From the NCBI GenBank assembly GCA_963678675.1, contig OY783196.1:16982138-17046137 (forward strand): a stretch of DNA of 64,000 nt, in the 5' to 3' direction. The stretch's first letter is position 1. Every line of letters begins with the position of its first letter. Of this stretch, positions 16,801 through 46,706 are shown piece after piece. A model generated the notes under the pieces. That model worked only from the letters and a program-made list of their open reading frames with translations, made no database searches and was not told the origin of the DNA. Source of the stretch: Xiphydria camelus (Eukaryota > Arthropoda > Insecta > Hymenoptera > Xiphydriidae). The position numbers and the translations under genes were made by a program.

Positions 16801-16942
16801 CTATAATCTAAAATGTGTCGTGCGAAATTACCTCGCAGAGAAAGACTCATTTATAAAAGAAGGCTACAATAGCCGTTCCTCGGAGCACCGTCCGACGCGA
16901 TTGCTGCGACCCAGAGAACTTGAGTATCATCGAGTTCTTAAT

Positions 16943-17385: not shown

Positions 17386-17395
17386 ATAATAATGA

Positions 17396-17770
17396 CTAAT
17401 TAAAAGTTTTAACATTATGATAAAAACGATTACCTACAGTAATTAGCATTGATCCCGAAGCAAGAAATCTTAAAGTCGGCAATAATTTTGTTGCTGGCTG
17501 AATTGCTGCATTTCTTGGCGACCTCGAAGCAATGCGATGTCGTATTTGTCCCAATAATCTCTGACAGGTTTGTTTTTCCAAACGAAAGCAAGTGAAGAAT
17601 TCTACAACCATTGTATTCTTCGAAATAGTCAACTCTGGAATAGTTTTGTATTAGATATTGGTTATAAATTAGTAGGTATAGGTATCCTTTATTTACTTAC
17701 CGGGCACGTATTTTCCTAGGATTTCTCATTCTTTGTAAGACGTCAATTTCATCATCAGATGATGATTTGA
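17396..17770 (-). pseudogene. Harbinger transposase 5' exons in element B, frameshifted
   Basis: Two exons: one ending RMRNPRKIRAR at about 17700, and one at about 17433-17632 that reads DYFEEYN in one frame, then VEFFTCFRLEKQT and LLPTLRFLASGSMLITVG in another. The family has both in a single frame, so a 1-bp indel sits near AATGGTTGTAGAA. Copies C and D carry the same bases there. The exon is followed directly by the captured host-like sequence instead of the catalytic domain. Confidence 0.7.
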
Positions 17771-18673
17771 CAACTGGCACATCAATCAACTCTATTTCAC
17801 AACTAATAACAATTATTATGATTCTGTCACGGTTGTGATTCTGTCACGGAATAATAGACGCAAACAAAAAGTTAGGTTATCCCGAGGATAGCTAGCTTAT
17901 CCAGCGCTGAAACTGCCGGATAAGCTATCCCTGCATTTATTCCAAAGTTTATCCCATTCCAGACTTATACCATCGTGGTAAAACGCTTGCGTACAGGTTA
18001 TTCTCAGTATAGCGCTATACGGCGTTTATACCGTGTTGGTAAAACCGGCCCTTAGTAGAGCAAGAGGTGTTGTTGAAAATACTTTTGGTATCATGGCTAC
18101 ACGGTGGAGAATTTTTCGAAGACCCATGAATACCTCGTTAGAAACTACAATTTCAATAGTAAAAGCTTCCGTATGTCTGCATAATTTTTTGATGCACAAA
18201 ACCGGTTACAGTCCAGCGGGATATGGAGACTTTGTTAATAAAGAAGGTAATATAGTAAAAGGTCAGTGGAGGCAACAAGAACCTGCTGTAGGTTTAAATA
18301 ATATAACAATGGCTGGAGGAAATGCCCATTCTCGGTATGCATCCAAAATTAGAGATACATTTGCATTATACTTAGAAAATGAAGGCGCAATTCCTTGGCA
18401 ATATAATCAAGTAGCGTAACTGTAATGTATATAAGCATATATGTGGTTTTATTGTAAGAAATTCAAAATTTTAAATAAGATAAGATGTCGATAAACATTT
18501 CACCAATAGTTGAAATCACTAATAGCACAATGTTATTTTAACCCTTGTGCTGTCTGTGGATTTACAATAATAACTATCTAGGACTGATGTAAAGGCATTT
18601 AAAAAATGTTTTGTACGCGTAATTCATTTTTCGATTTCAAATTTATTTATACATTAATGAGTAAGACTATTAT

Positions 18674-25669: not shown

Positions 25670-26653
25670 GGGCCGGTTTTACCAACACGGTATAAACGCC
25701 GTATAGCGCTATACTGAGAATAAGCAGTACGCAAGCGTTTTACCACGATGGTATAAGTCTGGAATAGGATAAACTTTGGAATAAATGCAGGGATAGCTTA
25801 TCCGGCAGTTTCAGCGCTGGATAAGCTAGCTATCCTCGGGATAACCTAACTTTTTGTTTGCGTCTTTATTATTCCGTGACAGAATCACAACCGTGACAGA
25901 ATCATAATAATTGTTATTAGTTGTGAAATAGAGTTGATTGATGTGCCAGTTGTCAAATCATCATCTGATGATGAAATTGACGTCTTACAAAGAATGAGAA
26001 ATCCTAGGAAAATACGTGCCCGGTAAGTAAATAAAGGATACCTATACCTACTAATTTATAACCAATATCTAATGCAAAACTATTCCAGAGTTGACTATTT
26101 CGAAGAATACAATGGTTGTAGAATTCTTCACTTGATTTCGTTTGGAAAAACAAACCTGTCAGAGATTATTGGGACAAATACGACATCGCATTGCTTCGAG
26201 GTCGCCAAGAAATGCAGCAATTCAGCCAGCAACGAAATTATTGCCGACTTTAAGATTTCTTGCTTCGGGATCAATGCTAATTACTGTAGGTAATCGTTTT
26301 TATCATAATGTTAAAACTTTTAATTAGTCATTATTATATGCCGCCACCTCTGCAACCTCCAACGACTCCTAATATCGCGAGGAGAGCTAGTTTACAGGGC
26401 TACAAGTTCATCGATCGGCATAAACCGCCACTGATCTCCCAGAAATCAATGGGCGACATACTGAAAAACATCAACAAAGTCAAAATGAAACTCGTCACAA
26501 GGTACGATTAAACAATTTTATCGCGGTAAACTTTTTATTCGCCAGGAACAAAGAGGAGTTTCGCATTGTCAGAATGTCGTGGCTGCGAAAGATTGATTTT
26601 GTTCACAGTGGGCTTTTAAACGTGTTTTTCAGATCGCCGGGTGGGAGACCTTT
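25670..26653. mobile_element. Pack-type Harbinger element C, cut off by the palindrome
   Basis: Starts GGGCCGGTTTTACCAACACG after TAA. It is the same as the right half of element B in inverse orientation: transposase exon 1 (to about 26021), exon 2 with the shared frameshift and an extra TGA (ttcactTGAtttcgt), then the captured MTFR-like exons (26339-26503 and from about 26634). The copy stops inside the second captured exon, at GAGACCTTT, exactly where the big palindrome begins; the remainder does not reappear after the palindrome. Confidence 0.8.
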
Positions 26654-27050
26654 CCCAAGTAGCAAGAAATATCTGTGCGATATCTATGAGATGTCTATAT
26701 GTCTAGAAAACGATATCTAAATTTGGCATAAACGTGGTCGAAATCTAGATATAGACATTGCGTAGATGTCGGACAGATATCCTAAGTTGACAAGAATCGA
26801 TATTCCGTATAAATATAGATGTCGCTAGACATAGTGCAGATATAGAATGAAAGATATCGGTGAGATATCTAAATATCGATAATCGAGAAATCGACGAAGT
26901 AGATATCGTTCAGTTATCGAAAATTCGATATTCAAGTATCTCTGCTACTGATCGAAAATTAGATATTCAAGAATATCTGCCACTGATCGAAAATTAGATA
27001 TTCAAGAATATCTGCCACTGATCGAAAATTAGATATTCAAAAAGAAAGTT
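26654..27050. repeat. Subterminal GATATC-rich repeats, left arm
   Basis: Many AGATATCT / GATATCTA phrases in both directions, then tandem 35-bp units (ACTGATCGAAAATTAGATAT...) at about 26948-27040. The left arm has one unit more than the mirrored block at 46132-46528. Confidence 0.8.
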
Positions 27051-27164
27051 GATCTGAAATATATGTATTGGTGTTAATCGGGAAAATCAAACACGTATAT
27101 TTGAGACACGAACTTTATTGGAAGTATGTTCATAAATCAGAATAAGGTGAGTGAAACAAATCTG

Positions 27165-27550
27165 TTATATTGAAATAATCGATTCCCTGACAGAAAGATT
27201 TTTACTAAAAGTACGTTCGAAAAGCGCAATAAGATAAGTGAAATAAACTTATCACATTTAAATAATCGATTCTCTAAAAAAAAAAAAGAATTACAGTGCA
27301 CAGCACAGTATTAGAGAATTAAGGTAAGTGAAAAAAACTTATTATATTTAAATAATCGATTCCCTGACAGAAAGATCTTTACTAAAAATACGTTCGGAAA
27401 GCGCAATAAGATAAGTGAAACAAACTTATTACATTTAAATAATCGATTCCCTAACAAAAAAGAATTACAGTGCACAGCACAGTATTAGAGAATTAAGGTA
27501 AGCGAAAAAAACTTATTATATTTAAATAATCGATTCCCTAAAAAAAAAAG
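27165..27550. repeat. Tandem repeats of about 190 bp, left arm
   Basis: Successive copies share AAATAATCGATTCCCTGACA, AAAGCGCAATAAGATAAGTG and TTACAGTGCACAGCACAGTA. The mirrored block lies at about 45664-46049. Confidence 0.7.
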
Positions 27551-28110
27551 AACTGCAATGCGAACATACCATATGTGTAGTTTACTGCAATTATTTGTGA
27601 TTAATTGCAGAATATTACAGTGAACTACAGGTATAGCGCGTATGTGGTTTACAGTAATCTTCTATAGTTGATAGCTATGAGTAGTTAACTATAGAATATT
27701 ACAGTAAACTACTCATATGATATTTTCGCACTGCAATCCTTTTTCGTGAGGATTTCAATTTCGTTAATGAGCTGCTTGCCTTACAGTTACACATATATTT
27801 GGTAATTAGCACAAAATCTTTATAAAGGTATGACCAGAAAGCACAAAGTAAGTGAAACAAAGTTATGTTTGAATAACCGCTATCAATTTCGTTAACGGGA
27901 TGTTTTCTTTATACTTATGAGTATTATTACTGTCGGCTTCCGGATGTTGATAGCTGAGTCCATATTTATTAATTTGCCGCCGTTTTGCAAATTAACGAAT
28001 ATGGACGGGGTTACTATCTGGAAGCCGAGAGTAATGTATTACTGGCTGCGAAAGCCCGACAGTCTTGAGAATTCTTTCCTATTTCTAGCTCATTTTTGGT
28101 TTTCCCTTAA

Positions 28111-28409
28111 CTCTTTGCACTCCAGGCCTGTTTACAGTACTTTATCGCGTAACGTAAACAAAGATATTGAGTTTAAACGTCGCATTTGGAGGGGACGCTT
28201 GAACCCTTAACCCGCGAGGTGCTACCAAATCGTATAACGCGAGGCCGGGGATAGCGGTCTCGCAGACCGACATCACGGGTTGAGGGTTAAGGCGACTCTG
28301 GCGTGTGTTACGGCCCACCGTCCAGTGTATGTAAAAAATAGCACGGGCGCCTGAGCGGTGCCGCGTGAATCGCCTGGGCACCGGAGTGATGTCGCAGGAG
28401 TGCAAAGGA
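28111..28409. mobile_element. TTAA-flanked piggyBac-type MITE, left arm
   Basis: TTAA|CTCTTTGCACTCCAGG at the left and CTGCAAAGGA-type mirror (GGAGTGCAAAGGA|TTAA) at the right. A further TTAACCC/GGGTTAA pair lies inside. The mirrored copy at the same place in the other arm is 44805-45103. Confidence 0.65.
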
Positions 28410-28445
28410 TTAATAGCGAATCGGACTCTAATTCGATGCAACGAT

Positions 28446-28652
28446 TTATTCAATTAGATTCCGACTCGCTATTAAACTTGCACAATATATGTTTTCCCCC
28501 TCGTTTTCTATCCTTTCTTCCTCTTCAATTTCCTCTTCTTTCTGTTGCTCCTCCTCTTCATTATATTCGTTCTCCTTATCACTTTCTTCATTTTTCCCCT
28601 CGTCATCGCCATAATTTTCTTCTTCTTCTTCTCCTTCGTTGTCATCGTTGTA

Positions 28653-28684
<32 letters not shown>

Positions 28685-28772
28685 TGCGCTGCTCGTTCAT
28701 CTCTTCTTCCAAATTGAGACGTCGCTCAACGTTAGCATTCCTGAGGACGAAAATATCGAGATTAAACGTCAT
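28446..28772 (-). other. Acidic low-complexity frame, left arm
   Basis: Reads MTFNLDIFVLRNANVERRLN, then long Asp and Glu runs built on GAC and GAG/GAA triplets. It could be an exon of the DUF4806-type gene (a possible acceptor, CCTCAG, precedes GAATGCTAAC) or only a translated triplet repeat. Mirror: 44442-44768. Confidence 0.35.
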
Positions 28773-29272
28773 TTCGTCTCCAAAACATCAAGTCATTTTA
28801 TATTGGATTCAATGCGGCAGTTGGATACGTACTTGGAGAGCTTCGATCTGATACGCGATGACGCATTCCGCAACCAATTCTTGATATGGACCTCTATGTC
28901 ATATTCACTTACATTTGGATATCTCCCGCGAACCGTATCTACAAAAAATCACGTTATTCATCAGTATATTCCCTCGAGTTATTGTTTTACGTAAACTATA
29001 TGCAAATTGATTACAAACCAAAAATTACGTCTTTCAATTTTAATTTTGAAAATACTGCTTTCCCTTTTGCCCCGGTCCAGCTGTATTTGACTGCAACTGA
29101 ATTTGATAGCAGGGAGCTCAACATTTTGTAAATCGTTCTTTTTACATCCATCCCGCCAATGAGAGAAATTCCCGCGATCTGCAATTAAAATGATGTAACG
29201 ATGAGTCGCATATTCGTAAAGGCTACGAGATGAAACGATGGACATTTCGACTACGAAGTACCGAAAGCTCAC

Positions 29273-31214
29273 CAAATCCCGCTTGTAATCTCCACGATTC
29301 AGCAGCCTCTCTATACGCTCAACTTGCTCAGGCAACGAGATTGGAAACATGTCCATGATTTCGTTTATGGTTGTGGTTCTACGAGGTTCGTTTAATACGG
29401 ACTTGCCGCGGATCAAAAATCTCCCCAGAGTGTTAAACTGGTCATTGATGTGAATCAGACCTTGTTTCAGAAAACTGAGTTCCCGCAAAACTTTTAATTG
29501 GAATTCTAAAAATTGGAGAACATTAAGGATTGATTTGCCGTCACTGTGGGATTTTTTATCCGTCTCCGTGGCATAAAGAAAGGCAGGTACCTACTAATTA
29601 CCTTTATTAGCATCGCACTCCGTTGTAGCCACGGGTGACACAGGGGTAGATTGTCGCGTTGAAACAAATCCGTTACTTCTGTCGTTTACAGAAGCTGCAG
29701 ATCCCGAGGAGTGGAATGGAAGGTCACCTACAACTACATCAAAATCAACGGTATAGACTAGCCACAATTGTTTTGGATATCGCAAGGACAAACTTACTCG
29801 ATTCGAAAATGTCTCGTTTATTAGCTTCAGTCGACAAAATTGAATCACTGCTTAAAGATTCAATTAACACTCGCTTTCCAGAGTTATCTCCGCAGAGTTG
29901 CGCAAGTCTTTCGCTGGAAGTGCTACTTGAAGCTTTACTGCAGTGATACGCGTCGACAGGTGCGGGTCGTTTTTTCTGTCCGTAACCTGAATAGATTATT
30001 TGAATGACTCAAAATAGCAGTATAACACTGAGTAAATATAAATAACTGTGTTATCCATTAAAAAAGTATGTACAGTAGACGCTCTCTTAACCGGCCTTGA
30101 CGGGACCGACCTAGGGTCGAATAACCAAAAAGCCGGTTAAAGAGAAGGTAGTGAAAAACCCATGTAAAAAACACTTTCGCAAGGAAGAAAAAAAATACAA
30201 TTTTTTCAAAACACTAAGAAAACAGAACTTTTATTCTGTATTAGAAACATACATTACAAATTAACATTTCACGAACTGTAAAAAATATGTAGGTTTTCAA
30301 GTTGCTACTTGTCTGCGGCCGCGAGCAGCAATAACAATAACAATGTATTCCTAGAAGAGGCCGGTTAAAGCGGCGCCGGGTAAGAGAGCGTCTACTGTAA
30401 TAAGTATTGGAAGCAATTGCATGAGAATGAATTTCATCGACATCAGAGTCCTTCAAATGCAACCTCTTATTACTTCAAAATTATGACTCAATATCTCATT
30501 AGCATTTGTTTCATTTATACGTTGAATGACAAAAAGGACTCACTTTTTTTTTCGCGTTGATCTCGACAATCCTGAGTCAGACTGTTTTGACATTGTTTTA
30601 AAAAAGCTGGAACTTTTGGCAATTTACTGGCTTTCGTGGCATTATTTTGGCGTTTTTCCAGATTTTTCATGCCAGATGATTGATTAAACATCGTGCTTCG
30701 ATATTCCTCTTCATCGTCTGAAGAGAAACGTCTTACTTTGCGTATTTTCCTTCTCTGCTGAGCATCGGAGTCTGTATTTAAATCCGACGTGTCCTCTGCC
30801 GTTCTGCATTTTTCTTTCGCCAGCCTATAATCATCTAGAATGATAATGTGTAATGTAATTATAAAATTATAATTATCGTCGTCCTCCTTAAGTATTTAAT
30901 ATTACGCACGCACACACGCACGCACACACACACACACACACACACAGACCTCAAAGTCCCACACACATGCAAACAGAGAGGTAGAAGGAACAAGACTTTG
31001 CTTTACCGAAAAAATTATTGCCTATAAGTCGTGCGGGAAATTTTTGCCATGTATCTGGATCGATTTTCCTTCTGATCAAGTTTCCAGCATTTGTCGTCTT
31101 GGAAGGCCACCAACAATATCCGTTCTCAAACCATTTTTTTGGTACGACTTCCACCTTACTTTCTTCAGTGAAATTCACGATTATCCACATATCGTGGTGA
31201 ATGGCTGATTGCAT
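29273..31214 (-). CDS. DUF4806-type transposon protein, left arm, open frame
   Basis: Exons 31007-31214, 30544-30834, 29798-29986, 29602-29727 and 29273-29505 join in phase with GT/AG borders. The start MQSAIHHDMWIIVNFTEESK followed by VEVVPKKWFENGYCWWPSKT and RRKIDPDTWQKFPARLIG is the opening typical of arthropod DUF4806 transposon proteins. Next come a basic, Ser/Asp-rich middle (RRKIRKVRRFSSDDEEEY), Ser-rich linkers, and the DUF4806 part (LRELSFLKQGLIHINDQFNT...MDMFPISLPEQVERIERLLN). The family function is unknown; it is found beside EnSpm-like transposases and may bind DNA or the transposase. The last exon is uncertain: two acceptors follow 29273 and neither gives a clear family ending. 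In this arm exon 3 is open, unlike the right arm. A pogo-like MITE sits in intron 2. Confidence 0.65.
30073..30397. mobile_element. pogo/Tigger-like MITE, left arm
   Basis: Ends CAGTAGACGCTCTCTTAACC and the inverted GAGAGCGTCTACTG, flanked by TA. Mirror copy 42819-43143. It lies in an intron of the DUF4806-type gene. Confidence 0.75.
30905..30945. repeat. (CA)n microsatellite, left arm
   Basis: In the first intron of the DUF4806-type gene; the mirrored (TG)n run at about 42258-42311 is 12 bp longer. Confidence 0.85.
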
Positions 31215-31443
31215 TAAAAAGAATAAGCAATATGAGAATCAACGATATAGACTAGTCGCAATTATCTTGAATAACGCGAGGACAAACTTACTTGTTCACG
31301 ATACAACTTGAAAGATTCTGGTCGGTTCTCTTGTCCGTAATTTCCCCTTTCCGTTATTTATTAATTAATGTAATTTATTAATATTATATATTATATTATA
31401 CGACGTATAATTATTATTTTATTGGACGTATACGCGAAGCTTT

Positions 31444-33710
31444 TTAATATCCATTGGTTTTCGTATGTAACAATGGAAGTGCGATTAGTTTTGGACCACG
31501 TGGAAGTATCATATATTTAGCGACAACATCGACAACTGGCCATGTTTGAAGGTGTAACAGTTGATTTTGTAATTCGTATATTTTAATAATGGAGCTATTG
31601 CAGGGTTCTGTGTAATAATCTCTTTTATCTATATACTCTCGGCCAATAATGACCAGTTCGTTGGATTCTGTCGAGTCAGCAAAATTTTCAATTTTAATTA
31701 TATTACCGTCTCTCGTCCCACAATAACAGTTAGGCTCTTTTATTCGTAATATGAAATTTTTATGCTCGAATGTTTCAAACTTGTTGACCATATTTGAAGA
31801 ATTTGGTTTGCTAGGATAATTATTGCGAGGATACAAAGATTGAGCTTTATTCGTGTTTCGCGTTTTCCTTGATATTTCATTTCTCTTCGTTAATTCTCCG
31901 TATCGTTTAATAATTTGTTCTAATGGTCGGTTTGGTCCTCGAGTTAAGCATTTTAATCGATACATGTAGTTTTCAAAATGAAATGCACTGCATGAATTTA
32001 GATTTCCATATCTCATAAAGTCGTCTGCCAAATGGTAGAGACCATGAACATTGAAACTTATTTGGTGTTCTCCATACAAAACTTTAAAGCACTCCACGAA
32101 ATGCTTCAATAACATCCGAGCATACAAAACTATTTCTTTAGTTGAACTATCATTAAGTAAAATGGACATCGCCACGTGAAGGCAGAGAAAATGATTGAAC
32201 ATATCTTCAGTAAGAATTCCCCGCAAAACTATTATTCCCGTATACAACAAAAATTGTCGAAATTCCGTCGCTTTCCATCTTCGAAAGTCTTCTATTTTTC
32301 TGGGAAGGCGGGCAAAATCTGTAGGAATGCATTTTCTTAATGAGAGGAGCCTCTCTGATAACCGTTTCACATCGCGGGCAGGTATTCGATTTGGTATTTT
32401 CCCGGATAACCACAGCATTATCAATCGTCGAACAACCCCTAAGCAAACTAGGTGCATGTAATCGAGGGGAAAGGAATCTATCATGTGAATATCAGGAATG
32501 TTCTCTAGTATAGATGTACCTTGGTGATAATTAGCATCTTCTTGATTTACAAAACTATGATGACTTCTCAATGCACCGATTTTTGGAAAACATACACGAC
32601 CTTTCAAGTACTTTCCTTTTGTCGTACATCTGTTGCAAGAATAATACCCCGAATGTCCTTTAACTTGCAAGATGTAACATCTGGCGGGGGTATCAGCGCA
32701 AATACCACTGATTTCTACCGAAATTACTTGTTCTGACGCTATTTCAAGGCCATTGGATACTACCTCACAAGCTTCGGAAACAAATTTACTTAGGAACAAA
32801 TTTACGTCTTTTGGTTTTTCGTCACCGTGATACAAACCAATAATAAAAACAGAAGCAACACCAATCGGTAACAGAGTACCAAGTATTGGCCAGAACTGAC
32901 TTGAAGAACTGTTAGTTAAGGGCAGTCCGTCAATGCCAATTATAACGCGTATACGTGAAGGTATATATTGTGACTGCTTGATTGCATTTAAAAGACCATT
33001 TTTTAATCCAAAATGACAGTAACGCCCGGGAGGTATACTTGTCGAAAATGTCGAGATTGGTGTTTGTAGTAAAGTCCGCGAATCAGTAGGTAAAATAGGA
33101 ATATTGGAAAATTGTCTTAATATTTTAAGTAGATCTGTTGCCGCCTTATGACTTATATTATTTTTTAACATCCAGTCTATTATTTGATGCTGAAAACTCA
33201 TTTCATCGAACGTTTCGTGATGGTCTTGGAGGTCTTCATTATTCGATTGGAATACTTCTTCCTCTTCTATATCATTTTCTATATTTTCATCCCTTCTGAT
33301 ATTCCAACTATCCACACTGTCCCTCATTTCCGTATAACCATGGACATTATTAAGAATCACGTTATCGCCAATGCTAACAGAATGTTCAATACATTTCCTT
33401 GAGATGTGCTTTCTAGCTTGACTTTTTCTAGCTTCACCGTTATTATTGAGAACGTTATCTATATTTTCAATAAATGAATTAGTTTGTGAATCAAATATAT
33501 ATATATATATTTATTGCAGTATTACTTTTAGTTTCTAAGTCATATATTATCATTACTTTTCGGGGAAGACTCATTGACGTCCATCAACATTCTATCGATA
33601 GGATACTCGATGTTTTCTAAATTTTCCGATGCAAATATTGACAATTTTAATCTTTTGTACTGAGCCTGACGGCTTAAAGACAAAAAGTCTTTTCTTTTTC
33701 TTGTAGACAT
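31444..33710 (-). CDS. EnSpm/Transposase_21-like transposase, left arm
   Basis: A long open frame of 638 codons (31444-33360) extends upstream as exon 31444-33458 and joins a first exon 33557-33710 through a 99-bp intron (GTAATG...TATAG), giving about 722 residues from the ATG at 33710 (MSTRKRKDFLSLSRQAQYKR). Features: an acidic N-terminal part; IIGIDGLPLTNSSSSQFWPI and DEKPKDVNLFLSKFV, the DDE-type core phrases of animal EnSpm/Transposase_21 proteins; a zinc-binding-like GHSGYYSCNRCTTKGKY; and SFPLDYMHLVCLGVVRRLIM with a His/Asp pair typical of this group. The frame has no stop. The counterpart at 39494-41760 differs by one Leu/Ser change in my comparison. Superfamily naming is by motif memory; a related superfamily is possible. 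Confidence 0.75.
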
Positions 33711-33791
33711 TATTTGAGTTTGTATATACGTAACTGAAAACAAAAAGTCAAGCTACTATGACGGTTTGAATTAACTAGATGAAATCTGTGG

Positions 33792-34442
33792 CTTGGTTCT
33801 AAAAGGGCCAATGTCAATTTTTCGATTTGGGCCAAAGGGGGCGTCCACAAACCAAGTAACGCTCTTGAGGGGGGTAGAGGGGTAAGCTACACTGTCTACA
33901 TAGTGTGACGAAGGGGGAGGGAGGATACGCGAGAAACAGTTACGTAACGGCAGACAAAAAAAATTTACTAATAAAATTTAATGCTATTCTTTAATATGGC
34001 GAAAAAATCAAATAGTTTTTGTATATAAAAACGAAAACTAAATAAATGTTATATTATTTAATATGAAAAAAAAAAATGTTAATTTTTGAAAAATTTATTT
34101 TTAAGTGCAATTGAAACGTTACGTAATATTTCAGGGGGAGGGGGAGGGGTCAAGCCAATTGTCTACATCGTGTTACATGGGGAGGGGGAGGGGGTCAAAA
34201 TTAGGGAAAAAAGCGTTACGTGATTTGTGGACGCCCCCAAAGTGCATAATCAAACTGTATTTCAAGAGAACCTTTAAATGTAGAAAGGGCCAATGTCTAC
34301 TCACAATAACAACCGTGCTATAAAAGTGCGTAGGGTCAATGTTTAAATCGAAAAAAAAACATTTAATTTTATAGGTAAGAAGGCCAATGTGGACATAGGC
34401 ATAAATTAGCATTTTATGACTTTGGCCCTTTTAGAACCAAGT
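33792..34442. mobile_element. Two nested inverted-repeat elements, left arm
   Basis: Outer pair: CTTGGTTCTAAAAGGGCCAA at about 33792 and TTGGCCCTTTTAGAACCAAG at about 34442. Inner pair: GGGGGCGTCCACAAACCAAG at about 33837 and ATTTGTGGACGCCCCC ending about 34238, with C/G-rich runs beside each. Same arrangement in the right arm at about 38762-39412. Confidence 0.6.
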
Positions 34443-34705
34443 CTTGTTTAATTCTTTTGAAGCGTTTTTTGTGTTTTCTGTAAAATTTGTGATTCTGCAG
34501 TTACGAGGTTTGATAATTAGGGTGACGATATCTGAATAGCATGATTTTTTCATCGTGAACATTAAGCAGGTTTAACTTTCGTGGCAAAATAATAAAATTC
34601 GGTCTGATAATGTTTCTCTCTGAATTAAATTTTTTCTATTATTCGATGCGTGAATCGGAGAACAACAGTCAACAAGTTAACAGGCCGGTCCGAGTCAGTA
34701 ATGCA

Positions 34706-35012
34706 AAGCCGGGATCCCACGACGCGCAGTTCGGCGAATCTCTGGATATTTGTGAAGGTTTGCAAGCCATGAGAATAGAGAAGCGCGGCTCGGCCTTGCT
34801 ATAATTCGTCGGTACATTTGACACGAATCAAAGGAATTTCGATCTCTTTGCCTAGCCGAACCATTTGGCGACCTACAGTCGAGCGATCGAGACTCGCCAA
34901 ATCACAAGCCATGGAAATACTAAAAGATCGCATATGTAGGTACTTGTATTACGCCGCACTTTGGCTCGGCGACTTGAGACTCGCCGAACTATGCATTGGG
35001 GGATCCCGGCTT
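34706..35012. mobile_element. Inverted-repeat element with AAGCCGGGATCCC ends, left arm
   Basis: AAGCCGGGATCCC at the left and GGGATCCCGGCTT at the right, with GTTCGGCGA / TCGCCGAAC inside. Mirror 38192-38498. Confidence 0.6.
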
Positions 35013-35259
35013 AAAATGCAATGTAATTCTTGTCAGTTGGAACGTGAAACTGCCTATAAACTGGCCGAGTCGAGCCTGCAATGTAACATACAATGTACCT
35101 AGACTCGTGCGGTTGGGATGGAGCCTCCGATGCCGAACGAGCGGCTTGCTTTGATGCGTCGAGAATCACATACAGGCTCGGCTCGGTAGTGAATACGTGG
35201 CTTTGTGTTTGTTCGTAAAACCGATTTTCGACCGTAACGTTGCTTCGTTCGCGTTCGTG

Positions 35260-35732
35260 CTCGAAAATAAGTTCGCAGAGTTTTACGTTTTCTTTTATTG
35301 TTTTACAACGATTTGTTTGCTGTTTCGCAAAGTGTTCATATTCACTCGAAAGAGCTTTTTTCTGCTTTACAAAACTGTTATAATTGTTTCTTCGAATAAC
35401 TTCATTTTTTATTATTTTTCAGGTTTCGAAATGGATTATCCAGAAGGCAAAAATCAGCATTTTCGACATCTTTTTTAGCAAAGATTCGCCTATGACAACT
35501 TCTCGAAAAGGGAAGAAAAGCAGATGTCGATGATGCTGATTTTTGCATTCCATTTCTAAGCTTGAAAAACAATAAAAAGAGAGTTAGGTTATTCGAAGAA
35601 ACAATTATAACACTTTTGTAGAGCAGAAAAAGCTCTTTCGAATGAATATAAGCACTTTGCGAGACAGCAAACAAATGGTTGTACAACAATAAAAGAAAAC
35701 ACATAACTCTACGAACGTATTTTCCAACCTAA
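35260..35732. mobile_element. Mariner-like hairpin, left arm
   Basis: AAAATAAGTTCGCAGAGTTT...TTTTCTTTTATTGTTTTACAA is mirrored by TTGTACAACAATAAAAGAAA...ACGAACGTATTTTCCAACCT, then AATA. The outer phrase resembles mariner ends; the left end is decayed. Mirror 37472-37944. Confidence 0.5.
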
Positions 35733-36563
35733 TACATATATACGGCTTTTATTTACAGTAAACGTACCGCACTGTACCAGAGAATGAAAAAAAAATACAC
35801 GACAAGCGAGAGAGAGAAATCCCGTTACGTCTGCGGTATTGCTTTTCCACTGCAATGTGACTGTTAATTACGTGACTATTATTTCTTCCGACAAGAGTAG
35901 TGATTTTCTCTATTGAAGTCTTCTTAATTTATTGAACATAAGATCACCGATATCTTCACTTGTACATACGTTTGACATGTTCCGAGGCAATGCGCAATTA
36001 TGCTGTCGATGCTGGTGGTGATTGCACTCATTATAATGAGTGCAATCACCGTCGGCATCGACAATCGCTTGGAATCTCCGAGGCATACTATCTACCATCG
36101 ATAGTAAAAATTGAAAGTGAAAGGCTTCTTATCAATTGTGTCAAATAATAATGTGTCGTCTTACCTGTATATACTCGTACACGTATTGTCGCCAGAGAAT
36201 AAAAAAAATACACGCATCAAGCGAGAGTGAGAACTTTCTTTCTTTATTGAACACACTTCTAAATTTTTTTAACGTAAGATCACTGTTACTCTTTATTCGA
36301 GGCGTTTGCGATGTCAAAGAGAAGCTGCTTCCTTCCGAGGCTGCGTATGAATCTGAAGAAAGCAGAACGGATATATTTCCCCCCTAATGAGCTGCTAGTA
36401 GAAGAGAGAGTCTATAGGTTCAGAGATGTAACTAGTGAATGGTAGGGATATACGTACATACGCTTCGTTTGAATAATGTTTGTGCAAAAGTCAAGAGTGG
36501 GAGAGAAAATATTATATCTCATTGGTACTGAAGGAATACCGATAAAGTGTGCGTGTGCAGTGG

Positions 36564-36640
36564 ATTAACTTTTAGCCCCCACCCTTTTCCACGCTACCAC
36601 TCCGGTTCCTTGCAGTAAGAGAAATCGAAATTGGAACAAC
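36564..36640. other. 77-bp loop at the centre of the palindrome
   Basis: Unpaired sequence between GTGTGCGTGTGCAGTGG and its mirror CCACTGCACACGCACAC. It contains TAGCCCCCACCC and CCACTCCGGTTCC. No similarity to the outer ends is seen. Confidence 0.85.
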
Positions 36641-37471
36641 CCACTGCACACGCACACTTTATCGGTATTCCTTCAGTACCAATGAGATATAATATTTTCT
36701 CTCCCACTCTTGACTTTTGCACAAACATTATTCAAACGAAGCGTATGTACGTATATCCCTACCATTCACTAGTTACATCTCTGAACCTATAGACTCTCTC
36801 TTCTACTAGCAGCTCATTAGGGGGGAAATATATCCGTTCTGCTTTCTTCAGATTCATACGCAGCCTCGGAAGGAAGCAGCTTCTCTTTGACATCGCAAAC
36901 GCCTCGAATAAAGAGTAACAGTGATCTTACGTTAAAAAAATTTAGAAGTGTGTTCAATAAAGAAAGAAAGTTCTCACTCTCGCTTGATGCGTGTATTTTT
37001 TTTATTCTCTGGCGACAATACGTGTACGAGTATATACAGGTAAGACGACACATTATTATTTGACACAATTGATAAGAAGCCTTTCACTTTCAATTTTTAC
37101 TATCGATGGTAGATAGTATGCCTCGGAGATTCCAAGCGATTGTCGATGCCGACGGTGATTGCACTCATTATAATGAGTGCAATCACCACCAGCATCGACA
37201 GCATAATTGCGCATTGCCTCGGAACATGTCAAACGTATGTACAAGTGAAGATATCGGTGATCTTATGTTCAATAAATTAAGAAGACTTCAATAGAGAAAA
37301 TCACTACTCTTGTCGGAAGAAATAATAGTCACGTAATTAACAGTCACATTGCAGTGGAAAAGCAATACCGCAGACGTAACGGGATTTCTCTCTCTCGCTT
37401 GTCGTGTATTTTTTTTTCATTCTCTGGTACAGTGCGGTACGTTTACTGTAAATAAAAGCCGTATATATGTA

Positions 37472-39412
37472 TTAGGTTGGAAAATACGTTCGTAGAGTTA
37501 TGTGTTTTCTTTTATTGTTGTACAACCATTTGTTTGCTGTCTCGCAAAGTGCTTATATTCATTCGAAAGAGCTTTTTCTGCTCTACAAAAGTGTTATAAT
37601 TGTTTCTTCGAATAACCTAACTCTCTTTTTATTGTTTTTCAAGCTTAGAAATGGAATGCAAAAATCAGCATCATCGACATCTGCTTTTCTTCCCTTTTCG
37701 AGAAGGTGTCATAGGCGAATCTTTGCTAAAAAAGATGTCGAAAATGCTGATTTTTGCCTTCTGGATAATCCATTTCGAAACCTGAAAAATAATAAAAAAT
37801 GAAGTTATTCGAAGAAACAATTATAACAGTTTTGTAAAGCAGAAAAAAGCTCTTTCGAGTGAATATGAACACTTTGCGAAACAGCAAACAAATCGTTGTA
37901 AAACAATAAAAGAAAACGTAAAACTCTGCGAACTTATTTTCGAGCACGAACGCGAACGAAGCAACGTTACGGTCGAAAATCGGTTTTACGAACAAACACA
38001 AAGCCACGTATTCACTACCGAGCCGAGCCTGTATGTGATTCTCGACGCATCAAAGCAAGCCGCTCGTTCGGCATCGGAGGCTCCATCCCAACCGCACGAG
38101 TCTAGGTACATTGTATGTTACATTGCAGGCTCGACTCGGCCAGTTTATAGGCAGTTTCACGTTCCAACTGACAAGAATTACATTGCATTTTAAGCCGGGA
38201 TCCCCCAATGCATAGTTCGGCGAGTCTCAAGTCGCCGAGCCAAAGTGCGGCGTAATACAAGTACCTACATATGCGATCTTTTAGTATTTCCATGGCTTGT
38301 GATTTGGCGAGTCTCGATCGCTCGACTGTAGGTCGCCAAATGGTTCGGCTAGGCAAAGAGATCGAAATTCCTTTGATTCGTGTCAAATGTACCGACGAAT
38401 TATAGCAAGGCCGAGCCGCGCTTCTCTATTCTCATGGCTTGCAAACCTTCACAAATATCCAGAGATTCGCCGAACTGCGCGTCGTGGGATCCCGGCTTTG
38501 CATTACTGACTCGGACCGGCCTGTTAACTTGTTGACTGTTGTTCTCCGATTCACGCATCGAATAATAGAAAAAATTTAATTCAGAGAGAAACATTATCAG
38601 ACCGAATTTTATTATTTTGCCACGAAAGTTAAACCTGCTTAATGTTCACGATGAAAAAATCATGCTATTCAGATATCGTCACCCTAATTATCAAACCTCG
38701 TAACTGCAGAATCACAAATTTTACAGAAAACACAAAAAACGCTTCAAAAGAATTAAACAAGACTTGGTTCTAAAAGGGCCAAAGTCATAAAATGCTAATT
38801 TATGCCTATGTCCACATTGGCCTTCTTACCTATAAAATTAAATGTTTTTTTTTCGATTTAAACATTGACCCTACGCACTTTTATAGCACGGTTGTTATTG
38901 TGAGTAGACATTGGCCCTTTCTACATTTAAAGGTTCTCTTGAAATACAGTTTGATTATGCACTTTGGGGGCGTCCACAAATCACGTAACGCTTTTTTCCC
39001 TAATTTTGACCCCCTCCCCCTCCCCATGTAACACGATGTAGACAATTGGCTTGACCCCTCCCCCTCCCCCTGAAATATTACGTAACGTTTCAATTGCACT
39101 TAAAAATAAATTTTTCAAAAATTAACATTTTTTTTTTTCATATTAAATAATATAACATTTATTTAGTTTTCGTTTTTATATACAAAAACTATTTGATTTT
39201 TTCGCCATATTAAAGAATAGCATTAAATTTTATTAGTAAATTTTTTTTGTCTGCCGTTACGTAACTGTTTCTCGCGTATCCTCCCTCCCCCTTCGTCACA
39301 CTATGTAGACAGTGTAGCTTACCCCTCTACCCCCCTCAAGAGCGTTACTTGGTTTGTGGACGCCCCCTTTGGCCCAAATCGAAAAATTGACATTGGCCCT
39401 TTTAGAACCAAG
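37472..39412. mobile_element. Right-arm mirrors of the nested elements
   Basis: Mirror copies of the mariner-like hairpin (37472-37944), the AAGCCGGGATCCC element (38192-38498) and the two-level element (38762-39412, inner 38966-39367). Their presence at matching places in both arms means they were there before the arms were duplicated. Confidence 0.6.
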
Positions 39413-39493
39413 CCACAGATTTCATCTAGTTAATTCAAACCGTCATAGTAGCTTGACTTTTTGTTTTCAGTTACGTATATACAAACTCAAATA

Positions 39494-41760
39494 ATGTCTA
39501 CAAGAAAAAGAAAAGACTTTTTGTCTTTAAGCCGTCAGGCTCAGTACAAAAGATTAAAATTGTCAATATTTGCATCGGAAAATTTAGAAAACATCGAGTA
39601 TCCTATCGATAGAATGTTGATGGACGTCAATGAGTCTTCCCCGAAAAGTAATGATAATATATGACTTAGAAACTAAAAGTAATACTGCAATAAATATATA
39701 TATATATATTTGATTCACAAACTAATTCATTTATTGAAAATATAGATAACGTTCTCAATAATAACGGTGAAGCTAGAAAAAGTCAAGCTAGAAAGCACAT
39801 CTCAAGGAAATGTATTGAACATTCTGTTAGCATTGGCGATAACGTGATTCTTAATAATGTCCATGGTTATACGGAAATGAGGGACAGTGTGGATAGTTGG
39901 AATATCAGAAGGGATGAAAATATAGAAAATGATATAGAAGAGGAAGAAGTATTCCAATCGAATAATGAAGACCTCCAAGACCATCACGAAACGTTCGATG
40001 AAATGAGTTTTCAGCATCAAATAATAGACTGGATGTTAAAAAATAATATAAGTCATAAGGCGGCAACAGATCTACTTAAAATATTAAGACAATTTTCCAA
40101 TATTCCTATTTTACCTACTGATTCGCGGACTTTACTACAAACACCAATCTCGACATTTTCGACAAGTATACCTCCCGGGCGTTACTGTCATTTTGGATTA
40201 AAAAATGGTCTTTTAAATGCAATCAAGCAGTCACAATATATACCTTCACGTATACGCGTTATAATTGGCATTGACGGACTGCCCTTAACTAACAGTTCTT
40301 CAAGTCAGTTCTGGCCAATACTTGGTACTCTGTTACCGATTGGTGTTGCTTCTGTTTTTATTATTGGTTTGTATCACGGTGACGAAAAACCAAAAGACGT
40401 AAATTTGTTCCTAAGTAAATTTGTTTCCGAAGCTTGTGAGGTAGTATCCAATGGCCTTGAAATAGCGTCAGAACAAGTAATTTCGGTAGAAATCAGTGGT
40501 ATTTGCGCTGATACCCCCGCCAGATGTTACATCTTGCAAGTTAAAGGACATTCGGGGTATTATTCTTGCAACAGATGTACGACAAAAGGAAAGTACTTGA
40601 AAGGTCGTGTATGTTTTCCAAAAATCGGTGCATTGAGAAGTCATCATAGTTTTGTAAATCAAGAAGATGCTAATTATCACCAAGGTACATCTATACTAGA
40701 GAACATTCCTGATATTCACATGATAGATTCCTTTCCCCTCGATTACATGCACCTAGTTTGCTTAGGGGTTGTTCGACGATTGATAATGCTGTGGTTATCC
40801 GGGAAAATACCAAATCGAATACCTGCCCGCGATGTGAAACGGTTATCAGAGAGGCTCCTCTCATTAAGAAAATGCATTCCTACAGATTTTGCCCGCCTTC
40901 CCAGAAAAATAGAAGACTTTCGAAGATGGAAAGCGACGGAATTTCGACAATTTTTGTTGTATACGGGAATAATAGTTTTGCGGGGAATTCTTACTGAAGA
41001 TATGTTCAATCATTTTCTCTGCCTTCACGTGGCGATGTCCATTTTACTTAATGATAGTTCAACTAAAGAAATAGTTTTGTATGCTCGGATGTTATTGAAG
41101 CATTTCGTGGAGTGCTTTAAAGTTTTGTATGGAGAACACCAAATAAGTTTCAATGTTCATGGTCTCTACCATTTGGCAGACGACTTTATGAGATATGGAA
41201 ATCTAAATTCATGCAGTGCATTTCATTTTGAAAACTACATGTATCGATTAAAATGCTTAACTCGAGGACCAAACCGACCATTAGAACAAATTATTAAACG
41301 ATACGGAGAATTAACGAAGAGAAATGAAATATCAAGGAAAACGCGAAACACGAATAAAGCTCAATCTTTGTATCCTCGCAATAATTATCCTAGCAAACCA
41401 AATTCTTCAAATATGGTCAACAAGTTTGAAACATTCGAGCATAAAAATTTCATATTACGAATAAAAGAGCCTAACTGTTATTGTGGGACGAGAGACGGTA
41501 ATATAATTAAAATTGAAAATTTTGCTGACTCGACAGAATCCAACGAACTGGTCATTATTGGCCGAGAGTATATAGATAAAAGAGATTATTACACAGAACC
41601 CTGCAATAGCTCCATTATTAAAATATACGAATTACAAAATCAACTGTCACACCTTCAAACATGGCCAGTTGTCGATGTTGTCGCTAAATATATGATACTT
41701 CCACGTGGTCCAAAACTAATCGCACTTCCATTGTTACATACGAAAACCAATGGATATTAA
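39494..41760 (+). CDS. EnSpm/Transposase_21-like transposase, right arm
   Basis: Exons 39494-39647 and 39746-41760, about 722 residues, the mirror of the left-arm gene with the same splice sites, core phrases and open frame. The one protein difference I found is Ser in QNQLSHLQTW where the left arm has Leu. The 638-codon part starts with GTG at 39844 only if read alone; the family-like N-terminus upstream favours the spliced ATG start. Confidence 0.75.
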
Positions 41761-42254
41761 AAAGCTTCGCGTATACGTCCAATAAAATAATAATTATACG
41801 TCGTATAATATAATATATAATATTAATAAATTACATTAATTAATAAATAACGGAAAGGGGAAATTACGGACAAGAGAACCGACCAGAATCTTTCAAGTTG
41901 TATCGTGAACAAGTAAGTTTGTCCTCGCGTTATTCAAGATAATTGCGACTAGTCTATATCGTTGATTCTCATATTGCTTATTCTTTTTAATGCAATCAGC
42001 CATTCACCACGATATGTGGATAATCGTGAATTTCACTGAAGAAAGTAAGGTGGAAGTCGTACCAAAAAAATGGTTTGAGAACGGATATTGTTGGTGGCCT
42101 TCCAAGACGACAAATGCTGGAAACTTGATCAGAAGGAAAATCGATCCAGATACATGGCAAAAATTTCCCGCACGACTTATAGGCAATAATTTTTTCGGTA
42201 AAGCAAAGTCTTGTTCCTTCTACCTCTCTGTTTGCATGTGTGTGGGACTTTGAG

Positions 42255-42257
<3 letters not shown>

Positions 42258-42297
<40 letters not shown>

Positions 42298-42311
42298 CGT
42301 GTGTGCGTGCG
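42258..42311. repeat. (TG)n microsatellite, right arm
   Basis: Mirror of the left-arm (CA)n, 12 bp longer; includes TGCG variants at its end. Confidence 0.85.
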
Positions 42312-42818
42312 TAATATTAAATACTTAAGGAGGACGACGATAATTATAATTTTATAATTACATTACACATTATCATTCTAGATGATTATAGGCTGGCGAA
42401 AGAAAAATGCAGAACGGCAGAGGACACGTCGGATTTAAATACAGACTCCGATGCTCAGCAGAGAAGGAAAATACGCAAAGTAAGACGTTTCTCTTCAGAC
42501 GATGAAGAGGAATATCGAAGCACGATGTTTAATCAATCATCTGGCATGAAAAATCTGGAAAAACGCCAAAATAATGCCACGAAAGCCAGTAAATTGCCAA
42601 AAGTTCCAGCTTTTTTAAAACAATGTCAAAACAGTCTGACTCAGGATTGTCGAGATCAACGCGAAAAAAAAAGTGAGTCCTTTTTGTCATTCAACGTATA
42701 AATGAAACAAATGCTAATGAGATATTGAGTCATAATTTTGAAGTAATAAGAGGTTGCATTTGAAGGACTCTGATGTCGATGAAATTCATTCTCATGCAAT
42801 TGCTTCCAATACTTATTA

Positions 42819-43143
42819 CAGTAGACGCTCTCTTACCCGGCGCCGCTTTAACCGGCCTCTTCTAGGAATACATTGTTATTGTTATTGCTGCTCGCGGCCG
42901 CAGACAAGTAGCAACTTGAAAACCTACATATTTTTTACAGTTCGTGAAATGTTAATTTGTAATGTATGTTTCTAATACAGAATAAAAGTTCTGTTTTCTT
43001 AGTGTTTTGAAAAAATTGTATTTTTTTTCTTCCTTGCGAAAGTGTTTTTTACATGGGTTTTTCACTACCTTCTCTTTAACCGGCTTTTTGGTTATTCGAC
43101 CCTAGGTCGGTCCCGTCAAGGCCGGTTAAGAGAGCGTCTACTG
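42819..43143. mobile_element. pogo/Tigger-like MITE, right arm
   Basis: CAGTAGACGCTCTCTTACCC ... AAGAGAGCGTCTACTG, TA on both sides; mirror of 30073-30397. Confidence 0.75.
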
Positions 43144-44441
43144 TACATACTTTTTTAATGGATAACACAGTTATTTATATTTACTCAGTGTTATACTGCT
43201 ATTTTGAGTCATTCAAATAATCTATTCAGGTTACGGACAGAAAAAACGACCCGCACCTGTCGACGCGTATCACTGCAGTAAAGCTTCAAGTAGCACTTCC
43301 AGCGAAAGACTTGCGCAACTCTGCGGAGATAACTGGAAAGCGAGTGTTAATTGAATCTTTAAGCAGTGATTCAATTTTGTCGACTGAAGCTAATAAACGA
43401 GACATTTTCGAATCGAGTAAGTTTGTCCTTGCGATATCCAAAACAATTGTGGCTAGTCTATACCGTTGATTTTGATGTAGTTGTAGGTGACCTTCCATTC
43501 CACTCCTCGGGATCTGCAGCTTCTGTAAACGACAGAAGTAACGGATTTGTTTCAACGCGACAATCTACCCCTGTGTCACCCGTGGCTACAACGGAGTGCG
43601 ATGCTAATAAAGGTAATTAGTAGGTACCTGCCTTTCTTTATGCCACGGAGACGGATAAAAAATCCCACAGTGACGGCAAATCAATCCTTAATGTTCTCCA
43701 ATTTTTAGAATTCCAATTAAAAGTTTTGCGGGAACTCAGTTTTCTGAAACAAGGTCTGATTCACATCAATGACCAGTTTAACACTCTGGGGAGATTTTTG
43801 ATCCGCGGCAAGTCCGTATTAAACGAACCTCGTAGAACCACAACCATAAACGAAATCATGGACATGTTTCCAATCTCGTTGCCCGAGCAAGTTGAGCGTA
43901 TAGAGAGGCTGCTGAATCGTGGAGATTACAAGCGGGATTTGGTGAGCTTTCGGTACTTCGTAGTCGAAATGTCCATCGTTTCATCTCGTAGCCTTTACGA
44001 ATATGCGACTCATCGTTACATCATTTTAATTGCAGATCGCGGGAATTTCTCTCATTGGCGGGATGGATGTAAAAAGAACGATTTACAAAATGTTGAGCTC
44101 CCTGCTATCAAATTCAGTTGCAGTCAAATACAGCTGGACCGGGGCAAAAGGGAAAGCAGTATTTTCAAAATTAAAATTGAAAGACGTAATTTTTGGTTTG
44201 TAATCAATTTGCATATAGTTTACGTAAAACAATAACTCGAGGGAATATACTGATGAATAACGTGATTTTTTGTAGATACGGTTCGCGGGAGATATCCAAA
44301 TGTAAGTGAATATGACATAGAGGTCCATATCAAGAATTGGTTGCGGAATGCGTCATCGCGTATCAGATCGAAGCTCTCCAAGTACGTATCCAACTGCCGC
44401 ATTGAATCCAATATAAAATGACTTGATGTTTTGGAGACGAA

Positions 44442-44529
44442 ATGACGTTTAATCTCGATATTTTCGTCCTCAGGAATGCTAACGTTGAGCGACGTCTCAA
44501 TTTGGAAGAAGAGATGAACGAGCAGCGCA

Positions 44530-44561
<32 letters not shown>

Positions 44562-44768
44562 TACAACGATGACAACGAAGGAGAAGAAGAAGAAGAAAAT
44601 TATGGCGATGACGAGGGGAAAAATGAAGAAAGTGATAAGGAGAACGAATATAATGAAGAGGAGGAGCAACAGAAAGAAGAGGAAATTGAAGAGGAAGAAA
44701 GGATAGAAAACGAGGGGGAAAACATATATTGTGCAAGTTTAATAGCGAGTCGGAATCTAATTGAATAA
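44442..44768 (+). other. Acidic low-complexity frame, right arm
   Basis: Mirror of the frame at 28446-28772: Asp and Glu runs from triplet repeats. Coding status uncertain. Confidence 0.3.
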
Positions 44769-44804
44769 ATCGTTGCATCGAATTAGAGTCCGATTCGCTA
44801 TTAA

Positions 44805-45103
44805 TCCTTTGCACTCCTGCGACATCACTCCGGTGCCCAGGCGATTCACGCGGCACCGCTCAGGCGCCCGTGCTATTTTTTACATACACTGGACGGTGGG
44901 CCGTAACACACGCCAGAGTCGCCTTAACCCTCAACCCGTGATGTCGGTCTGCGAGACCGCTATCCCCGGCCTCGCGTTATACGATTTGGTAGCACCTCGC
45001 GGGTTAAGGGTTCAAGCGTCCCCTCCAAATGCGACGTTTAAACTCAATATCTTTGTTTACGTTACGCGATAAAGTACTGTAAACAGGCCTGGAGTGCAAA
45101 GAG
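44805..45103. mobile_element. TTAA-flanked piggyBac-type MITE, right arm
   Basis: TTAA|TCCTTTGCACTCCTG ... CCTGGAGTGCAAAGAG|TTAA; mirror of 28111-28409. Confidence 0.65.
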
Positions 45104-46528
45104 TTAAGGGAAAACCAAAAATGAGCTAGAAATAGGAAAGAATTCTCAAGACTATCGGGCTTTCGCAGCCAGTAATACATTACTCTCGGCTTCCAGATAG
45201 TAACCCCGTCCATATTCGTTAATTTGCAAAACGGCGGCAAATTAATAAATATGGACTCAGCTATCAACATCCGGAAGCCGACAGTAATAATACTCATAAG
45301 TATAAAGAAAACATCCCGTTAACGAAATTGATAGCGGTTATTCAAACATAACTTTGTTTCACTTACTTTGTGCTTTCTGGTCATACTTACCTTTATAAAG
45401 ATTTTGTGCTAATTACCAAATATATGTGTAACTGTAAGGCAAGCAGCTCATTAACGAAATTGAAATCCTCACGAAAAAGGATTGCAGTGCGAAAATATCA
45501 TATGAGTAGTTTACTGTAATATTCTATAGTTAACTACTCATAGTTATCAACTATAGAAGATTACTGTAAACCACATACGCGCTATACCTGTAGTTCACTG
45601 TAATATTCTGCAATTAATCACAAATAATTGCAGTAAACTACACATATGGTATGTTCGCATTGCAGTTCTTTTTTTTTTAGGGAATCGATTATTTAAATAT
45701 AATAAGTTTTTTTCGCTTACCTTAATTCTCTAATACTGTGCTGTGCACTGTAATTCTTTTTTGTTAGGGAATCGATTATTTAAATGTAATAAGTTTGTTT
45801 CACTTATCTTATTGCGCTTTCCGAACGTATTTTTAGTAAAGATCTTTCTGTCAGGGAATCGATTATTTAAATATAATAAGTTTTTTTCACTTACCTTAAT
45901 TCTCTAATACTGTGCTGTGCACTGTAATTCTTTTTTTTTTTAGAGAATCGATTATTTAAATGTGATAAGTTTGTTTCACTTATCTTATTGCGCTTTTCGA
46001 ACGTACTTTTAGTAAAAATCTTTCTGTCAGGGAATCGATTATTTCAATATAACAGATTTGTTTCACTCACCTTATTCTGATTTATGAACATACTTCCAAT
46101 AAAGTTCGTGTCTCAAATATACGTGTTTGATTTTCCCGATTAACACCAATACATATATTTCAGATCAACTTTCTTTTTGAATATCTAATTTTCGATCAGT
46201 GGCAGATATTCTTGAATATCTAATTTTCGATCAGTAGCAGAGATACTTGAATATCGAATTTTCGATAACTGAACGATATCTACTTCGTCGATTTCTCGAT
46301 TATCGATATTTAGATATCTCACCGATATCTTTCATTCTATATCTGCACTATGTCTAGCGACATCTATATTTATACGGAATATCGATTCTTGTCAACTTAG
46401 GATATCTGTCGGACATCTACGCAATGTCTATATCTAGATTTCGACCACGTTTATGCCAAATTTAGATATCGTTTTCTAGACATATAGACATCTCATAGAT
46501 ATCGCACAGATATTTCTTGCTACTTGGG

Positions 46529-46706
46529 CATTTCCAGACTGTCGCAGCGACAAACAGAAGTGTCGTCAATCGACCATATTTCATGCATCCGACAAAACAT
46601 CTGCGACGCCTGCGACGGATCCCCCACCCGATTTTTGCACAACCAATCGGAGTGACTTGTCGTATACGACAATCCGACATGTCGGATCCGTGAAATAGGC
46701 CCCTAA
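46529..46706. mobile_element. Fragment of a Harbinger-type MITE right of the palindrome
   Basis: Ends GTGAAATAGGCCCC followed by TAA; read on the minus strand it starts GGGGCCTATTTCACGGATCC, the style of the neighbouring Harbinger-type ends. Only this end is present; the other half is missing where the palindrome begins. Confidence 0.5.

Follow-up and report, generated by a model that had tools for sequence, protein, structure and literature searches.

Can a DNA transposon be a palindrome over its whole length, and if so, how would such an element arise, move, and keep its two arms alike? This question is raised by a 64,000-nucleotide stretch of the genome of the hymenopteran Xiphydria camelus (contig OY783196.1, positions 16,982,138 to 17,046,137; hereafter the window, on C20), in which positions 26654-46528 are occupied by an element made of two mirrored arms (26654-36563 and 36641-46528) around a 77-bp loop. 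Our evidence is the assembled genome sequence of this one species. It is likely, taking all observations together, that a cut-and-paste CACTA transposon of TRC type turned only once into a near-perfect palindrome, transposed in that form, underwent gene conversion between its inner arms, and was later altered at the window locus by an exchange or deletion. Comparison of the window with itself and alignment of the arms defined the following parts.

26654-36563, plus strand: left arm, 9,910 bp, with the tip CCCAAGTAGC at 26654 and its inner end at 36563.
36564-36640, no strand: central loop, 77 bp, with the same sequence in a second palindrome on C1 and nowhere else among the matches listed.
36641-46528, minus strand: right arm, 9,888 bp, with its tip at 46528.
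26916-27561, plus strand: subterminal tandem repeats of the left arm, with units of 35 bp and 87/177 bp.
45679-46266, minus strand: subterminal tandem repeats of the right arm, lacking one 35-bp unit relative to the left arm.
35263-35724, plus strand: imperfect inverted repeat nested in the left arm, resembling a miniature inverted-repeat transposable element, from the window self-comparison.
37480-37941, minus strand: the right-arm counterpart of that nested repeat, from the same comparison.

The longest inverted block in the window spans 9,632 columns at 99.7% identity (E = 0, far beyond chance), and the arms differ by 7 substitutions and 5 insertions or deletions (indels), the latter comprising a 35-bp tandem unit, indels of 1, 4, and 2 bp, and 12 bp within a CA run. 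Mirror symmetry stops at the tip on both sides of the element. An earlier note on this DNA had given the lengths of arms and loop, their coordinates, and the abrupt end of symmetry, all of which our self-comparison and arm alignment reproduced. It had also described nested insertions common to the arms and a full transposase gene in each, which correspond to the inverted repeat listed above together with a second nested piece (35963-36097) that recurs across the genome, and to an uninterrupted open reading frame (ORF) of 638 amino acids (aa) in each arm.

Searching the genome with the tip region returned both window arms, two opposite places 20.4 kb apart on C1, copies on C14 and C24, and a diverged copy on C28. 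The C1 places (C1:20901298-20921742) bound a second palindrome, on another contig and with the same tips, in which the full left arm and loop are followed by only 8 bases of the right arm, after which sequence is deleted up to 35415 and the right arm then resumes. The 77-bp loop is exact and the 8 right-arm bases beyond it are retained, while the 1.1-kb deletion in the right arm, a 1.3-kb insertion in the rest of that arm, and a 215-bp insertion are features of this copy alone. Its tips are flanked by TT on both sides, a 2-bp target-site duplication (TSD). Outside the element, the C1 flanks (10.3 kb left, 9.3 kb right) have only dispersed repeats in common with the window, at non-corresponding places, which together with the TT at the tips rules out a segmental duplication of the window region; the second copy would have come about by transposition. 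The palindrome centre was found only at C20 and C1 among the matches listed (40 of 429 candidates scored). In a search with the transposase (65 matches scored out of 652 candidates), this family accounted for four matches, the two arms of each of the two palindromes, and all four frames are open.

The existence of a second copy bears directly on whether the palindrome was made in the library or the assembly. Palindromic artefacts are known from whole-genome amplification (PMC6218980), and the window flanks are two different interrupted repeats with no TSD, as a misjoin would give. For that reason, the argument of the earlier note that unmirrored flanks alone rule out an artefact is unsound, as dispersed copies of a multi-copy element could be misjoined; the question is decided by the second palindrome and not by the flanks. 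The C1 locus has the same loop, the same tip-to-tip limits, TT at its tips, its own deletion and insertions, and 15 substitutions by which both of its arms differ from both window arms. Moreover, the 7 substitutions and 5 indels between the window arms are unexpected from a single folded molecule, and no single-arm copy available for misjoining was found among the scored matches. We therefore regard chimeric reads as an unlikely source, and consider it very improbable that the palindrome came from chimeric inverted molecules or from the misjoining of two dispersed copies; a fold-back artefact of one molecule is ruled out by the arm differences and the second locus with the same centre. That same locus, with its 2-bp TSD, bears out the proposal of a real EnSpm-type element whose inverted repeats run its full length. 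The genome search suggested for checking it thus yielded another palindrome with the same centre, and among the scored matches no single-arm copy.

The most likely route to this structure would be an inverted duplication around the 77-bp stretch, by fold-back or template switch during break or gap repair, akin to the template-switch and gap-filling models discussed for transposons with terminal inverted repeats (TIRs) in PMC8277862. Such a duplication would have lost one native end and left two identical ends. Both fold-back and head-to-head fusion of two copies had been put forward as origins; a fold-back or inverted duplication within one copy fits the short loop better than a fusion of two complete elements, because no second tip was found at the inner ends and the loop has no match outside the two palindromes among the matches listed. 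A related possibility, that the centre is where the second ends of two complete, separately inserted elements meet, tail to tail with 77 bp between them, draws on the inner end of the right arm, which reads CCCACTGCAC, CCC being the start of TRC tips. We consider this extremely unlikely, given that a comparison of the inner 600 bp with the outer 1,000 bp gave no inverted match longer than 10 bases, that a search of the inner end found no partner for the tip, that the loop continues neither of the repeats flanking the window element (E and R, described below) and has no other place among the matches listed, and that the entire unit, loop included, recurs at C1 between outer tips. No second tip or second terminal repeat was found inside the arm. 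Microhomology at the centre was looked for as well, and a 6-base match to the inner end of the arm, the only one seen, was unconvincing.

Once formed by inverted duplication, the whole 20 kb would be treated by the transposase as one element, because both ends bear the same tip and subterminal repeats, and it would have moved as a palindrome to yield at least the C20 and C1 copies. The C1 copy implies that an element with two identical ends can transpose, in line with the abundance in this genome of short elements whose two tips are alike.

Alignment of the four arms, two from the window and two from C1, revealed how the arms have changed since. Columns with a gap in any arm were dropped, including the inner 1.1 kb absent from the C1 right arm and the window's own difference at 35498. 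Of 28 variable gap-free columns, 15 separate the two window arms from the two C1 arms (AABB), 13 are private to one arm, and none pairs an arm of one copy with an arm of the other (ABAB or ABBA). All AABB columns lie within 29843-34908, whereas 11 of the 13 private columns lie within 26771-29410, so that the outer part (26654-29842) holds 0 AABB and 11 private columns and the inner part (29843-35415) holds 15 and 2. AABB columns lie further inward than private ones in a border-free Mann-Whitney test (p = 5.5e-4, or 8.2e-4 when three AABB columns close to the CA repeat are left out). A region-wise Fisher test gave p = 3.6e-6, a value that is overstated, the border having been chosen after the data were seen and being the first shared column; in both tests adjacent columns are not fully independent. 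In the window alone, clustering of differences towards the tips was seen in a post hoc Kolmogorov-Smirnov test (p = 0.012 for the 12 differences, 0.09 for the 7 substitutions), which the four-arm comparison supersedes. Six indel differences are also AABB, and eight are private (near 26947, 27210, 27276, 27827, 28996, 29880, 30922, and 33494). By a hand count of the four-arm columns, the two arms of a copy diverge by about 0.16-0.19% over the outer part and by 0.02% over the inner part; over the latter, the copies diverge from each other by about 0.27% (0.22% without the three CA-repeat columns).

The loop common to both copies indicates that the palindrome formed once; its arms therefore parted no later than the copies did, and AABB sites need homogenisation within each copy. 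Thus, the arms appear to have been homogenised strongly but incompletely within each copy, for which arm-to-arm gene conversion would be the best explanation. The pattern fits conversion reaching about 6.7 kb from the centre, with the outer 3.2 kb evolving independently. Had each jump rebuilt one arm from the other, AABB substitutions should be present in the outer part too; it contains none, and this alternative was rejected. Another way to obtain the pattern is that the two palindromes arose independently from ordinary elements whose terminal repeats were already about 3.2 kb long and whose interiors were then copied in inverted form, so that arm conversion would be unneeded. The switch from private to shared substitutions is indeed fairly sharp, falling between 29410 and 29843, the truncated C14 and C24 copies end nearby (30194 and 30143), and internal sequence has been recruited into terminal repeats in Galileo (PMC3573991). 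However, the same junction would have to be chosen twice, since the two copies agree exactly in the 77-bp loop and in the 8 bases that follow it, and the scored matches include no element in which 3.2-kb terminal repeats enclose a single interior; we consider this route improbable.

Single formation followed by transposition and inner-arm conversion has several observations against it. The outer part contains one AABB indel, at a trinucleotide repeat near 28653. Homogenisation is incomplete, since the inner part holds two private substitutions and the private indels near 29880, 30922, and 33494, and the C1 right arm retains its own 1.1-kb deletion. Inner-arm identity could partly reflect the assignment of reads during assembly or polishing, the outer arms being anchored by unique flanks. 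At this base composition, the 2-bp match at C1 has a 6.8% chance of arising at random. A single-arm ancestor was not found among the scored matches, so the founding event was not observed. Finally, the window copy is without a 2-bp TSD (TT vs CA), its flanks are two different broken repeats, E and R, and a genome pattern search for the reciprocal product of an exchange gave 0 matches.

25670-26653, plus strand: broken copy of repeat E, cut by the left tip at base 984 of about 2,420.
46529-46706, plus strand: repeat R, cut by the right tip.

A complete E at 15632-18051, with a TTA duplication on both sides, interrupts a gene at 14525-18417 that, from its motif, we take to encode a Harbinger-like transposase. 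The remaining 1.4 kb of the broken E is absent to the right of the window element. A 154-bp piece of E (26500-26653) is 100% identical at at least 32 further places, which suggests that E spread recently. Repeat R has at least 40 matches besides the window, representing 39 distinct places (two fall on one C22 place), and 38 start at flank base 1-7; the three R copies that were read extend leftwards as GGCGGCA(C/T)CAC before CATTTC, a stretch absent at the window. Because the left tip interrupts E and the right tip interrupts R, the two tips mark two insertion events, and the window copy probably combines two insertions. These flanks and the loss of the target duplication would be explained if two copies, one in E and one in R, had undergone an exchange or deletion between them, which would not have to yield a reciprocal product. 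Five near-identical tips are among the matches listed, and none of them except the window's own is joined to E or R. The final CA of the C14 copy's left flank is what a duplication matching the right tip would show, but this flank is not the left part of R. An assembly misjoin of two palindromic copies at the window locus could also give such flanks, but it would not remove the palindrome itself, which C1 shows independently.

The gene content and tips identify the element as a TRC-type CACTA (En/Spm) transposon, with CCC tips, a RAG1-like transposase, and a DUF4806-type gene. Splice sites of the transposase were placed by eye, and the coordinates of left-arm exon 2 were mirrored from the right arm.

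31444-33458, minus strand: inferred transposase exon 2, left arm, with a RAG1-like core and a BAH-like C-terminal domain in the model.
33557-33710, minus strand: inferred transposase exon 1, left arm, with an N-terminus like that of the relative P0001.
39494-39647, plus strand: inferred transposase exon 1, right arm.
39746-41760, plus strand: transposase exon 2, right arm, giving a spliced frame of 722 aa.
41966-44388, plus strand: DUF4806-type gene, right arm, several exons placed by eye, conserved part at 44036-44388.
28826-31238, minus strand: DUF4806-type gene, left arm, at the mirror position.

Joining the upstream exon to exon 2 gives a 722-aa transposase frame in both window arms, with one residue different. 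The protein has the RNase-H DDE core of the CACTA superfamily, TRC group, and carries LDYMHLVCLG, which fits the TRC motif [LVI]Dx[LM]HxxxLG present in 25 of 28 aligned proteins. DUF4218 was matched by 19 of these 28 and Transposase_21 by 3 (E <= 0.1); at this threshold the window transposase matched neither, nor any other Pfam family, and it had no sequence match in PDB. One scan each of the viral and prokaryote collections found no relative. The DUF4806-type gene, already recognised in the earlier note, was recovered at 44036-44388 when the DUF4806 part of a relative served as tblastn query (E = 2.3e-8), although none of the six window ORFs scanned gave a DUF4806 Pfam match; near 43335, its right-arm copy lacks 2 bp of the left arm. 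The tip CCCAAGTAGC, starting with CCC, stands at each of the four arm ends of the two palindromes and also at C14, and a 2-bp TSD is present at the C1 palindrome (TT) and at a short C14 element (TA), though not at the window copy. Tip, 2-bp duplication at C1, and motif thus agree in placing the element in the TRC group, and because its terminal repeat is the whole arm instead of a short TIR around one gene set, we count it as a TRC variant.

A speculative extension is that the transposon repairs itself, the palindrome serving as its own repair template, with conversion of the inner part keeping the transposase open, the palindrome being the favoured state, and two identical ends sufficing for CACTA/TRC transposition. 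We hold this to be rather unlikely. Open frames alone are no proof of it, because 42 of the other 61 TRC transposase matches (36-44% identical) are also free of internal stops, the remaining 19 having stops.

Other copies and relatives were seen in the genome. In the 40 kb of sequence read around each of the C14 and C24 copies, a single arm is present, and of it only the outermost 3.5 kb (C14) or 3.3 kb (C24); the two truncation points (C14:14416367 and C24:23058577) correspond to element positions 30194 and 30143, only about 50 bp from each other. Around the diverged C28 copy, neither transposase nor second tip was found in the 60 kb read, and the ancestral form was not recovered there. Places on C10 have only short inner-arm pieces in common with the palindrome. 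Short elements of about 0.5 kb, with tips at both ends that are 81-89% like the palindrome's, form at least about 30 opposite pairs among the matches listed (C20:10257719-10258241 and C14:14406181-14406679 are examples), and one of them, on C14, is flanked by TA at both tips. Among the other 61 transposase matches, two opposite-strand pairs lie less than 30 kb apart, each joining different families. A TRC relative with a 714-aa transposase has 23 equal-scoring matches (e.g., C1:17329615 and C14:5321300); two copies are 100% identical across the 7.4 kb read, a stretch that contains one transposase copy and ends before the right end of the element, and this family looks like a very recent burst. 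Elsewhere in the window, a tandem array at 61571-62285 holds two long open frames, of 284 and 295 aa, which overlap on the minus strand.

Foldback elements have repetitive terminal inverted repeats and are prone to rearrangement; the palindrome differs from them in that its arms hold complete, open transposase genes. Y-chromosome palindromes are large, with a short spacer and arms kept alike by arm-to-arm gene conversion, whereas the present palindrome is a mobile element in its own right, with copies at two loci. Brief mentions of both are found in the sources used here, of the FB4 Foldback element in PMC8277862 and of the existence of Y-chromosome palindromes in PMC6218980.

In the titles and abstracts of the open-licence literature searched, no fully palindromic CACTA element is described. 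Animal TRC elements, as presented in the relevant parts of the reports on SmTRC1, Tribolium, and Aedes (PMC1636069) and on Hydra Spongebob (PMC4298943), have terminal repeats of 10-54 bp and one gene set. SmTRC1 shows a 2-bp TSD in 7 of 14 copies (PMC1636069), and a Hydra TRC element combines CCC tips with a 2-bp TSD (PMC4298943). The palindrome resembles them in its CCC tip (CCCAAGTAGCAAGAAATAT, compared with CCCTAGTAGCACCGAATAT in the Tribolium element; PMC1636069), in its 2-bp TSD where present, in the LDxMHxxxLG motif, and in having a spliced transposase, as SmTRC1 does; it differs in having the full 9.9-kb arm as its terminal repeat and two copies of every gene. Galileo, of the P superfamily in Drosophila, is the nearest precedent; its TIRs have been lengthened by recruited internal sequence, up to part of the transposase ORF, by what its authors propose to be recombination and conversion involving the repeats (PMC3573991, PMC4168063). 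According to the same sources, the longest repeat in D. mojavensis is about 1.26 kb, and in D. willistoni the ORF is partly recruited, over more than 500 bp in one copy. Internal sequence has been taken into the terminal repeats in both cases, and in the palindrome this recruitment is complete; Galileo differs in belonging to another superfamily, in its partial ORF recruitment, and in its 7-8 bp TSD, which neither palindrome has (TT at C1, none at the window).

Unlike the short terminal repeats of the TRC elements in the sources cited, those of the present element have expanded to take in its full length and every gene, and the palindrome has apparently moved nonetheless, implying that two identical ends can serve a CACTA-type transposase. 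With the two copies, nature also provides a setting for measuring gene conversion within a mobile element, an independent copy serving as the reference. Since any pair of these palindromes can align in either orientation, they could bring about deletions and rearrangements, and the window copy looks like such a product.

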